DNA of 34,957 bases from Methanobacteriota archaeon (GTDB taxonomy: Archaea > Thermoplasmatota > Poseidoniia > Poseidoniales > Poseidoniaceae). Location of the stretch: contig PBMQ01000037.1 in the NCBI GenBank assembly GCA_002722615.1, positions 1 through 34,957 on the forward strand. Reading direction: 5' to 3'. The notes below the pieces were generated by a model, which was given only the letters and a program-made list of their open reading frames with translations, was not told the origin of the DNA and searched no databases. Below are positions 28,803 through 33,385 of this stretch, in pieces (position 1 is the stretch's first letter; every line of letters starts with the position of its first letter). The translations under genes and the position numbers were made by a program.

Positions 28803-28864
28803 CCATTTTCACTTTTCGGAAGGGGTTCTCAGAAGTCTTGCTTATGGTTTGCTGATGAACGTAT

Positions 28865-29152
28865 ATGGGCAGAACAGTACCGACATGGCGGGGCCGAGTG
28901 GAACAAGAAATCGAGGCTCTTGTACCGTACAGGCGAGCACTTTCATCTGCAGATCGAAATCGTTTTGATGTGATGCTTCACGATGTTCGAATACGTCGTG
29001 CTGCAGGTGGTATGTTGCCTGCACAAGAAGCCTGGAAACCCATGCTTTTGTCGATGCTTCTTGGTGCTCAGGAGCGTATACAAATACTTGAACAGCAAGT
29101 TTTGCTTCTTCAGGAGCAACTACTTTCACCGGGTGGAGACAATGGTCGATGA
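28865..29152 (+). CDS. Small helical/coiled-coil protein (MGRT-PT-R family), translationally coupled to the PolB-like gene
   Basis: MGRTVPTWRGRVEQEIEALVPYRRALSSADRNRFDVMLHDVRIRRAAGGMLPAQEAWKPMLLSMLLGAQERIQILEQQVLLLQEQLL; 11-bp overlap with the downstream start. Confidence 0.7.
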   Translation: MGRTVPTWRGRVEQEIEALVPYRRALSSADRNRFDVMLHDVRIRRAAGGMLPAQEAWKPMLLSMLLGAQERIQILEQQVLLLQEQLLSPGGDNGR

Positions 29153-31514
29153 AATCATTGGCTGGATCTTGGATGTACATCTTTGTTCAAAACAGCAGGA
29201 TATTCTTGTCTGGATTGTTAATGAACAGGGCTCTGTCGTTTCCGTTCGTGAACCATGGAATCCAGTTGTTCATGTGGCAGGGACTGCTCTTGATCTGAAG
29301 AACTTGATCGATTGGTTATGGCAACCTGAGTTGTGTCTGAGATTTGGCATCCAGTCCTATACATTTGAAACAAAGCGAACAGAATTGGGTTCGCAAGATG
29401 AGAGGCGCATGCTTGCTCTCACGCTCCATTCATGTAAAACAATCCGTTCGTTAGCGGAGCACATCGATGCCCGAGGTGAACATGTGCGATTCACACTTTA
29501 TTCGGTGGATCTGTTGCCTGAGCAACAATTCCTTACCTCAAAGCGTTTGACAATTGGTTCTCCTGTTCGTTTTGATAAGAATCAATTATCGCTTTGGGAG
29601 CATGATGTCGAACGGAGAGAATGGCGCTGTTGTAGGTTTGAAGTTGTTCTTGATCATTCATCAGAACAGCCGTGTGAAGTCATTCTTACACCTTGCAGTA
29701 CTTCGGGTGATGTCATAGCACCATCCACGAGTATTCTTCTAGAACAACCGAACGATGTAGTTTCCATAGAGGAATGGTTCCATCGATTTGACCCAGACAT
29801 TGTCCTCTCCATCCAAGGTAATACAACGTGTTTCCCTGCTCTTTTGACATATCTTGAAACAAAAGGGCAGACATTGCGTCTTGGTAGAAATCAATCAGAA
29901 TTGCGTCAACTTGGTCGTACTCGAATTGTTTCATCTTATGGTCAAGTGCTTCGTAGCGATCCACAGTTCCCTCTTGAAGGGCGTATTCACATTGATCTAT
30001 CAGCGAGTTTCATGTTTCGGGAAGGTAGCTTGGATGGACTGTATGAACTCGCAAGTGTCTCAGCCACTCGAATCAGTGATGCTTCGCGAAAATCACCTGG
30101 TTCGGTCATTAGTGCAATACAATATCGAGTTGCTATGGAAGACGGTGTCCTTGTCCCGTGGAAAAAGACCCGTCCTGAAGATACAAAATCTGCTTGGGAC
30201 TTGCTTCAATCCGATCGTGGTGGGCTTTACCTCGACAGTAAGCCAGGTGTTTACTCAAATGTGATTGAACTCGATTTTGCTAGTCTCTTTCCAAGCATTA
30301 TTGCTACGCGCAACATTTCACCTGAAACACTGAATTGCAGTTGTTGCCAACCGATTGCCAACAACAAGCCGTTACCGCTTCATCCGGATGAAGCCAAAAA
30401 AAGATTTCACCTGCAACAATGGAAATCTGCAAGTCTTGTGTTTCCACAACAGAGTACAAAAGCGTTTCAAGTTCCTGAGTTGTCAACACACACATGTGGG
30501 CGCGTACATGGTTTTCTTGGCCGTGTAGTTGCACCTCTCATCGAACGTCGACGACAACTAAAGCAACAAATTATGGTCAAAGGGGATTCTTTCGACCGTC
30601 AACAAAATGCTCTCAAGTGGCTTCTTGTAACCTGTTTTGGTTACACGGGTTATCGCAACGCACGTTTCGGTCGAATCGAAGCACATGAAGCAATTTGTGC
30701 ATGGGCCCGCGAACTCCTTTTGCAGACAATCGATTCTGCTCAAGAACGTGGATGGGAGGTTTTGCATGCAATCGTTGATTCAATATGGATTCGAGATGTT
30801 GCTGGAAGGTCTTTGCAGGATCAACACAATTCAGCGCTTGAGTTGGCCCAACATATTCACGCGACGACAGGGATTCCTCTTGAGTATGAAGCTACATATC
30901 GCTGTATTGCGTTTGTTCCAAGCAGAATGCACAGTGGAGGCTCGTTGACAAAATATTGGGCATATGGGGCGAATGGGATCAAAGTACGTGGTCTTGAGTT
31001 GCGCCAACATTCAACCTGTCGTTGGATTGTTCGGTTACAAGAACAAGCCTTGGATTTACTTTCAAAGTCTGATGATTTGGTCGATGGAATTCCAAGTTAT
31101 GGAGTTCAGTGTGAGATTCAATCTCTACTCATCGATGCAATACAACAATTGGAGCAGCATCATTTGTCGCCAAAAGACCTCATCATCACACAACGCATCT
31201 CACGCAAGCCAACGCAACACTCCTCGCAAACAGTTGCAGCCTTAGCCTTTCAACGTTCGGAACGGCTTGGATTCACTCCTGAATTGGCATCGAAAGTTCG
31301 CTTTGTGATTTGCTCAAAGAATACGAATAATCCGCTCGAACGTGTCCTTCTCGCTCATGAATGTGAAACACTGAAACATCCGATTCGTCACATTGACGTG
31401 GACCATTATCGCCAGTTAGCAATCCGTGCGATATGGGCAATCCTCGCACCCTTTGGTTGGAGTGAGGAAGACTTGCTTGAAACCAACATCACACGTTTGG
31501 ATCAGTGGATGTGA
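29142..31514 (+). CDS. Divergent family-B DNA polymerase (PolB2-like), exonuclease motifs degenerate (ORF track start 28983)
   Basis: Motif A VIELDFASLFPSIIATRN; motif B QNALKWLLVTCFGYTGYRNARFG; motif C VLHAIVDSIWI instead of YGDTDS; exo II-like DPDIVLSIQGNTTCFPAL. Confidence 0.85.
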   Translation: MVDEIIGWILDVHLCSKQQDILVWIVNEQGSVVSVREPWNPVVHVAGTALDLKNLIDWLWQPELCLRFGIQSYTFETKRTELGSQDERRMLALTLHSCKTIRSLAEHIDARGEHVRFTLYSVDLLPEQQFLTSKRLTIGSPVRFDKNQLSLWEHDVERREWRCCRFEVVLDHSSEQPCEVILTPCSTSGDVIAPSTSILLEQPNDVVSIEEWFHRFDPDIVLSIQGNTTCFPALLTYLETKGQTLRLGRNQSELRQLGRTRIVSSYGQVLRSDPQFPLEGRIHIDLSASFMFREGSLDGLYELASVSATRISDASRKSPGSVISAIQYRVAMEDGVLVPWKKTRPEDTKSAWDLLQSDRGGLYLDSKPGVYSNVIELDFASLFPSIIATRNISPETLNCSCCQPIANNKPLPLHPDEAKKRFHLQQWKSASLVFPQQSTKAFQVPELSTHTCGRVHGFLGRVVAPLIERRRQLKQQIMVKGDSFDRQQNALKWLLVTCFGYTGYRNARFGRIEAHEAICAWARELLLQTIDSAQERGWEVLHAIVDSIWIRDVAGRSLQDQHNSALELAQHIHATTGIPLEYEATYRCIAFVPSRMHSGGSLTKYWAYGANGIKVRGLELRQHSTCRWIVRLQEQALDLLSKSDDLVDGIPSYGVQCEIQSLLIDAIQQLEQHHLSPKDLIITQRISRKPTQHSSQTVAALAFQRSERLGFTPELASKVRFVICSKNTNNPLERVLLAHECETLKHPIRHIDVDHYRQLAIRAIWAILAPFGWSEEDLLETNITRLDQWM

Positions 31515-32166
31515 ATTCCAATGAACGTTGATGTTGATCCGTTGCAACAGAAGTATGCAATTCGATCAAGAGGTTACTCCTTTCGTCAAGAAAGCGTAGT
31601 TGCCTCCTCTTTTTATCCCCCCATACACCTCTCAATCGTTGGGCAATGTATGGCTTCATGGTGTGTTTGAGCTGTTGATGCAAAGGCGAAACAATATCTC
31701 CATCGAGTACTACAACTGGACAGATCCGTGAGAGTTCTTCCAATGCATCCATGCAATGTCGTAAAATTGAACGTGCTTCAAATCTCTTGATTTGCTCATC
31801 GAGGAACATCGCCAACATTCCATCGATGACGACCATGGATGCTTTGGTTAATGTCACTTCATGGCGCACTCTCCGAATGAGTGCATGAAGTTGATGCAGT
31901 GTGAATCCTCGGCCAATATACAATCGACGTAAGCTCTCCTCAAGGTTGCAATTCAGTGAACGCATAACTGGAAAAAAACCACATGGATCAAACCTGTGTC
32001 CTCCATCGATCCAATGAACGGCATTATCTTGTGAAAGCAGAACTGCAGTCCAGTGTTGAACGACAAAACGAATTTCCTTTCCATAAAAGCCAGGTCCTTC
32101 GAGTAGGGTGATTCCCGTTGAAGGAATGTTCAATGCTGTGTTCATATTTCTTGCAGGAAGCATCAT
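31489..32166 (-). CDS. RecA/RadA-like protein with degenerate Walker A (ORF track start 32184 is TTG)
   Basis: GITLLEGPGFYGKEIRF at the Walker A position (GK followed by E); AVHWIDGGHRFDPCGF; LRRLYIGRGFTLHQLHALI; ASMVVIDGMLAMF at the Walker B position. Confidence 0.65.
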   Translation of the reverse strand: MMLPARNMNTALNIPSTGITLLEGPGFYGKEIRFVVQHWTAVLLSQDNAVHWIDGGHRFDPCGFFPVMRSLNCNLEESLRRLYIGRGFTLHQLHALIRRVRHEVTLTKASMVVIDGMLAMFLDEQIKRFEARSILRHCMDALEELSRICPVVVLDGDIVSPLHQQLKHTMKPYIAQRLRGVWGDKKRRQLRFLDERSNLLIELHTSVATDQHQRSLEFTSTDPNV

Positions 32167-32236
32167 CTCACCAAGTATTGCCAATCATTAAAGTCAAACC
32201 TCAGTGTTTTTGCAGGGGGTAATGCAAAAGTGAAGG

Positions 32237-33385
32237 ATGAATTTCAAACACTGTCGCCAAGTGTATCTTCATGTGCGCAAGGAGCGAATTCTCATCCATT
32301 GCGATCTTGATGCCTTTTTTGCATCAGTGGAAATCCTCCATCACGGATTTCCTGATGATGAACCCCTGATTATTGGCTCCGATCCGATGCAGGGTAGAGG
32401 CAGAGGAATTGTATCGACATGCAATTATGCTGCTCGAAAATATGGCGTCCGTTCTGCAATGCCAATTTCTGAAGCATGGAGGCGATGCCCAGGTCATCCA
32501 TTTGGTCCAGCGCGCTTCATTCGTGGGACTCGTTCTCTTTACTCAATGGCCTCACGTCGAGTGATGAGAGTTCTACGAAAGGATTCGGATAAGTTTGAAC
32601 AAGCTAGTATCGATGAAGCATACTTGGATGTAACCGAAACTGTAGATGGCGATTGGGACGAAGCAATGGCTCTTGCACGACGTTTGCAACGATCGATCCA
32701 TGAGACTGTCGGCCTTACTGCATCATTTGGAATCGGACCGACTCGGATTATCGCAAAAATGTCCTCTGAAGTAAACAAACCAAATGGAATTCACAGAGTA
32801 CTGCCCGATGAAGTGACAGATTTTTTTGATTCAAGATCAGTGAGGGAGGTTCCGGGAATTGGCCCGAAAACAGCCAATATCCTTTCCGAATGGGGAATTA
32901 CGACAATGGATGATGCTGTTCAATTAGGAGAACTGGCATTGGCAAGGATGACTTCTGATCGCTTCGCTTCATGGCTTGTGCGAGTGGTTGATGGTTCAAC
33001 ATCGAATGTTGTCAGCCCATTGCGTTCTCGACGATCAATTGGGAAAGAGCGAACGTTCTCAATCGATCAGGATGATCATGAGCAAGTACTCAACATTCTC
33101 GAGCAACTGACACGAGGTGTCTTGGAGAAAGCCCGAACTGAAGGAATTGCAGGTCGACTTGCGGAAGTTAAGATTCGGTATACTGGATTTGAAACACATA
33201 CGCATGGACGCTCCATTCCCGTTGCGATGGATGATACTGAGGTTTTCTTGCGTCAGGTGAGACGATTGTTTGCTGAAAACGTACATCAAGAAGAGAAGGT
33301 CCGATTGGTAGGCTTTCGCCTTGGCCAACTCGAAGAGTTGGAAACGAGGCAAACAACGCTGAACTTCCCGGACGAGTCAGAGTAG
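32237..33385 (+). CDS. dinB: Y-family DNA polymerase (DinB/Pol IV type)
   Basis: ILIHCDLDAFFASVEIL, GRGIVSTCNYAARKYGVRSAMPISEAWRRCP, FEQASIDEAYLDVTE, TASFGIGPTRIIAKMSSEVNKPNGI, VREVPGIGPKTANIL; catalytic acidic residues intact. Confidence 0.95.
   Translation: MNFKHCRQVYLHVRKERILIHCDLDAFFASVEILHHGFPDDEPLIIGSDPMQGRGRGIVSTCNYAARKYGVRSAMPISEAWRRCPGHPFGPARFIRGTRSLYSMASRRVMRVLRKDSDKFEQASIDEAYLDVTETVDGDWDEAMALARRLQRSIHETVGLTASFGIGPTRIIAKMSSEVNKPNGIHRVLPDEVTDFFDSRSVREVPGIGPKTANILSEWGITTMDDAVQLGELALARMTSDRFASWLVRVVDGSTSNVVSPLRSRRSIGKERTFSIDQDDHEQVLNILEQLTRGVLEKARTEGIAGRLAEVKIRYTGFETHTHGRSIPVAMDDTEVFLRQVRRLFAENVHQEEKVRLVGFRLGQLEELETRQTTLNFPDESE

Follow-up and report, generated by a model that had tools for sequence, protein, structure and literature searches.

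A PolB2-type DNA polymerase with an IVD motif C and adjacent mutasome partner genes in uncultured Poseidoniales

The 34,957 nucleotides of DNA analysed here (hereafter, the window) come from an uncultured archaeon of the Poseidoniales (Marine Group II) and encode a family-B DNA polymerase belonging to PolB2 (Dpo2), with an altered but highly conserved set of motifs, a signature of purifying selection, and the genes of two partner proteins, PPB2 and iRadA, in an order shared with related loci. We consider it highly probable (about 0.88) that this protein serves as the catalytic subunit in a PolB2 mutasome and works as an active, proofreading-free translesion extender, its activity, extender role and complex formation being predicted by analogy with Sulfolobus work. 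The polymerase family was already known; for this lineage, no account of PolB2 was found in the literature searched, the coverage of which was incomplete. In this context, our data settle the IVD motif as a family trait backed by published biochemistry, and place a predicted PolB2 mutasome in an abundant archaeal group of the surface ocean.

Motif state and conservation of the polymerase

The polB2 gene occupies positions 29142..31514 of the forward strand and encodes 790 aa, with the start assigned to ATG 29142 on the basis of homologue starts and the overlapping upstream gene. Motifs A and B, described as clear in the first-pass annotation, are both intact: motif A, ELDFASLFPSII (30267..30302, +; residues 376-387), has LDFASLFPSII as its core (residues 377-387) and D378 as metal ligand, and motif B, KWLLVTCFGYTGY, lies at 30615..30653 (+; residues 492-504). 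Motif C reads LHAIVDSIWI (30762..30791, +; residues 541-550), and alignments bore out the earlier observation that Ile (I544) stands for the first Asp while the second Asp (D546) is retained. The closest solved-structure sequences are Pyrococcus/Thermococcus PolB, where LHAIVDSIWI aligns to an LYIDTDGLYA-type motif C; in profile-profile comparisons with E. coli Pol II, Methanomethylovorans PolB and the genome's own second PolB, HAIVD falls on YGDTD. Since IVD aligns exactly on the DTD of these reference enzymes, the palm has no canonical DTD at another place; indeed, neither such a motif nor an intact exonuclease, the two features named beforehand as counter-evidence, was found by sequence, profile or fold comparison.

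Pfam matched DNA_pol_B (6e-29) and detected no exonuclease domain in the 790-aa protein. The exo I-like strand (29628..29660, +; residues 163-173) is devoid of the DxE pair, whose positions are taken by V168 and L170 in the profile alignment, and the exo II-like segment, DPDIVLSIQGNTTCFPAL (29790..29843, +; residues 217-234), carries C230 at the position of the catalytic Asp, both in agreement with what had been read from the sequence earlier. Furthermore, the exo III segment is deleted in the profile alignment. In turn, H542, V545, D546 and the motif A D378 are identical in 50/50 aligned relatives and K492 is invariant as well (n=50 sequences), and the non-catalytic exonuclease columns drift. 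Compared with a 94%-identical relative, dN/dS was 0.107 for the whole protein and 0.085 for its polymerase domain; judged by these invariant residues and the low dN/dS, the motif pattern is not due to chance.

The missing canonical motifs are the sole point in favour of a recently degraded gene, or of a sequencing or assembly artefact of a canonical polymerase, an explanation to which we give practically no weight, since it is refuted by a dN/dS of ~0.1 and by active-site conservation across genera. Moreover, the polB2 frames are uninterrupted by stops in almost every relative, and the same genome holds a separate, intact canonical family-B polymerase (YSDTDS motif C, exo I YDLE).

The AlphaFold model, based on a 50-sequence alignment, reached a mean pLDDT of 88.5 and superposed on active archaeal PolB structures, those of the 9N and KOD polymerases, at TM ~0.7. 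Its main low-confidence stretch is a loop around residues 341-360, which leads up to the D(K/R) motif and corresponds to a part that touches iRadA in other PolB2 models (PMC11791011). The C-terminus, checked for PCNA binding, reads ITRLDQWM, with the usual Gln absent. Between motifs A and B, a CxCC...HxC set (C399, C401, C402, H450 and C452; window 30336-30497) is kept in nearly all relatives and in part in haloarchaeal PolB2, and is a possible metal or disulphide site.

Family assignment and distribution

Judged by its sequence features, the window polymerase is a PolB2 (Dpo2), and IVD is a trait of the family rather than a peculiarity of this gene; the first-pass annotation was right about the substitution, but had taken it as particular to the gene, and had named Dpo2 for comparison without recognising the gene itself as PolB2. 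The protein combines a family-B fold and intact motifs A and B with the HxxxD that is the general PolB2 rule at motif C (PMC8764526), present as H542-A-I-V-D546, in which the first Asp is lost and the His and second Asp are kept. Exo I is not conserved and exo III is missing in PolB2 (PMC7544198), as in the window polymerase, and Sulfolobus Dpo2 reads IID at the motif C site (PMC11791011). We regard IVD as the PolB2 norm because of the invariant residues, the Sulfolobus IID and the general HxxxD rule.

One further motif, D(K/R), is confined to PolB2 and to bacterial homologues of the family. It is represented in the window by DRGG (30213..30224, +; residues 358-361), where the low-confidence loop ends, with D358 in 50/50 and R359 in 48/50 aligned sequences, its position being deduced from published motif spacing (PMC11791011). 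CGR (residues 452-454) was considered as the D(K/R) site, which would have implied loss of the motif, and was dropped, as the published spacing points to DRGG.

In the ML tree, a check proposed with the first-pass annotation and run here without Sulfolobus sequences, all Poseidoniales copies grouped with haloarchaeal PolB2, the polymerase of a Leptospira phage and two IMG/VR contigs, and were separated from PolB3/Pol II (support 100/100; branch in all 200 bootstrap trees). Haloarchaeal PolB2, from Halobacterium, Halorubrum, Halorussus and Halosegnis plasmids, is the sister group at ~30% identity, and shares with the window an HGIVDS motif C, DRGG, an MGRT PPB2 and iRadA. Counting against our main reading are the missed NCBIfam cut-offs, an iRadA on the opposite strand and a patchy presence. 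With respect to the first, the closest NCBIfam entries are NF004418 and NF004416, both named 'type B DNA-directed DNA polymerase', and the window protein falls below both curated cut-offs (364 bits vs 692, and 340 vs 516). One of these is passed by haloarchaeal PolB2, and the PolB2 homologue of the Leptospira phage likewise scores too low; the models are narrow, and a missed cut-off bars the curated name, not membership in the PolB2 family.

PolB2 homologues on Leptospira phage LkmZ_Bejolso9 (L118) and on putative viral IMG/VR contigs (L120, L121) have ITD or YVD as motif C, and the phage copy contains YDLE in its early part. The variants IVD, ITD and YVD thus form a natural series for probing the role of the first Asp. 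A second family, f2 (L023, L025, L029, L030), keeps the exo II Asp (GDxxDFPAL) with exo I and exo III gone, and represents an intermediate stage of exonuclease decay.

The source assembly comprises 1.84 Mb (82% complete), and among named sequences the best matches come from Candidatus Poseidoniales, with isolate MCMED-G34 at 94% identity. Within the class, polB2 was present in 75/195 sampled genomes, many of them incomplete, and is therefore dispensable. A full-length family-B polymerase fold would suit an enzyme that replicates the organism's genome and merely has an unusual active site; however, this is very improbable, since canonical PolB was found in 36/40 genomes of the class, polB2 is missing in healthy close relatives, and the protein clusters with a translesion family and has mutasome partners. 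In genus g11, PolB2 and photolyase seldom occur together: 2 genomes have both, 10 have PolB2 only and 12 have photolyase only, in raw counts uncorrected for phylogeny or completeness, genomes lacking both being incompletely listed.

Partner genes and the predicted extender role

Upstream of polB2, and overlapping its start by 11 nt, lies the gene of PPB2 (28865..29152, +), an arCOG07300-type small helical protein of 95 aa. It falls in the ~90-aa class and begins with an N-terminal MGRT arm, the published PPB2 hallmark (PMC11791011), and hhalign aligned it to haloarchaeal PPB2 at 99.3% (E 5e-20). On the other side, iRadA (31489..32166, -; 225 aa, with an alternative start possible at TTG 32184) is convergent with polB2 and overlaps its 3' end by 26 nt. 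This truncated protein has the RadA/Rad51 ATPase fold with the N-terminal domain absent; RAD51/RadA were the best Foldseek matches (E ~1e-9), and hhalign aligned it to haloarchaeal iRadA at 98.8%. Its Walker A, GPGFYGKE, ends in GKE and misses the Ser/Thr, as predicted for an inactivated ATP site; the motif is further decayed in many relatives, though a few retain GKS or GKT. Divergent from iRadA is a Y-family polymerase gene, DinB/Pol IV (32237..33385, +).

Almost all of the related loci examined share the order PPB2(+), polB2(+), iRadA(-), and in many Poseidoniaceae DinB comes after iRadA. PolB2 is thus encoded with both partners, although iRadA is on the opposite strand, whereas in published PolB2 operons the three genes mostly run in one direction (PMC11791011). 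Haloarchaeal plasmid loci with all three genes have the order iRadA-PPB2-PolB2 in one direction, sometimes with a Cdc6 gene, in contrast to PPB2-PolB2 with an opposed iRadA and DinB beyond. The convergent iRadA, the adjacent DinB and the shared upstream box described below are specific to this lineage.

Sulfolobus islandicus/solfataricus Dpo2 provides the closest biochemical reference: it likewise has no first Asp in motif C (IID there, IVD here), conserves the His and second Asp, has a decayed exonuclease and the D(K/R) motif, and is encoded alongside PPB2 and iRadA (PMC8764526, PMC11791011). At 790 aa, the window enzyme is larger than the smallest PolB2 of Sulfolobus, and its iRadA is convergent, not co-directional as there. 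Sulfolobus Dpo2 roughly equals the replicase in nucleotide incorporation, has no exonuclease, and inserts poorly opposite lesions while extending mispaired ends well (PMC8764526). In PolB2, D378 (motif A) and D546 (motif C) hold the catalytic metals, and since both are kept, polymerisation is still expected; in known structures the first Asp of motif C is reported to face away from the active centre, and it would be dispensable here. As the exonuclease is absent, the enzyme could extend primers that end in a mismatch or at a lesion and that would be degraded by a proofreading polymerase.

A catalytically dead scaffold, which would bind primer-template and recruit partners but synthesise no DNA, would be consistent with the absence of both the exonuclease triad and the first Asp of motif C, and with the tight linkage of polB2 to an ATPase-decayed RadA. 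This older 'inactivated polymerase' view of PolB2 (PMC4104785), which the first-pass annotation had offered as its second option, has since been contradicted by experiment for Dpo2, as active as the replicase with the same Asp loss (PMC8764526); moreover, D378, D546 and K492 are invariant in the aligned relatives (n=50) while the non-catalytic exonuclease columns drift. With the IID enzyme of Sulfolobus being an active exonuclease-free extender, an active extender is far likelier here, and we consider a scaffold unlikely. The other option, an active polymerase that does not proofread, has good support: the protein belongs to PolB2, its catalytic residues are invariant, the gene is under purifying selection, and Dpo2 has published activity (PMC8764526).

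For the active extender, PPB2 and the ATPase-decayed iRadA probably bind PolB2, as modelled for other PolB2 systems, and would place it at damaged DNA, with the neighbouring DinB as a plausible inserter. Such an assembly resembles the E. coli Pol V mutasome (UmuC, UmuD', RecA), in which a specialised polymerase is combined with a small oligomer and a RecA-fold protein (PMC11791011); the Pol V polymerase is, however, of the Y family and non-homologous, and the likeness is in organisation only.

A candidate regulatory box shared with radA

De novo comparison of the PPB2 and iRadA promoter regions ranked TTCACTTT first. In the window, this candidate regulatory element occurs upstream of PPB2-polB2 as TTTCACTTTT (28807..28816, +) and between iRadA and dinB, in iRadA sense, as CTTCACTTTT (32226..32235, -). 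After dereplication, TTCACTTT was present in 24/45 PPB2 and 18/45 iRadA upstream regions, out of a total of 67 occurrences in 480 kb. The box also precedes canonical radA in 29/30 loci (L213-L242), usually twice and in reverse sense, with 3 others in 107 kb; in the source genome this site is G000:C7:95652-95672. Since the loci are related by descent, these counts are not independent. The pattern HTTCACTTTY has 30 occurrences in the source genome, and the intergenic box sites that recur in another species of the genus lie at radA, behind rfcS, between two uncharacterised genes and at iRadA/dinB, the PPB2 site recurring at octamer level.

These distributions tentatively suggest, at slightly under an even chance, a small Poseidoniales DNA-damage/recombination regulon in which the TTCACTTT box, often doubled, would control the PPB2-polB2 and iRadA/dinB promoters and radA. 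Under such common control, the mutasome genes on opposite strands would stay co-regulated; damage-inducible expression of polB2 is hinted at by the shared promoter box. The Sulfolobus damage element is ANTTTC (PMC9738581), which many box copies contain (as ACTTTC) and the iRadA copy of the window does not; given this fit, box control might be ancient. If real, the shared box would open a first way into studying DNA-damage control in Marine Group II. As to the putative regulator, only a single clear Orc1/Cdc6 was found in the source genome (82% complete).

A general promoter/terminator element was rejected, as the box, with 20 nonamers in 809 kb, is too rare elsewhere. The copy at PPB2, however, stands in many loci right behind the stop codon with which the preceding gene ends, so it may act as a terminator. 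A third recurrent pattern site, inside an MCM gene (L210), was judged to be chance. Between convergent genes, the TTCACTTT box, often as TTTCACTTTCACTTT, stands directly after the rfcS stop in several genomes (L203, L184, L188, L243, L309). Finally, a tandem box kept in two species of the genus lies between a 90-aa gene, whose product has a Cys-rich C-terminal half, and an uncharacterised gene of ~200 aa (L245, L307, L205).
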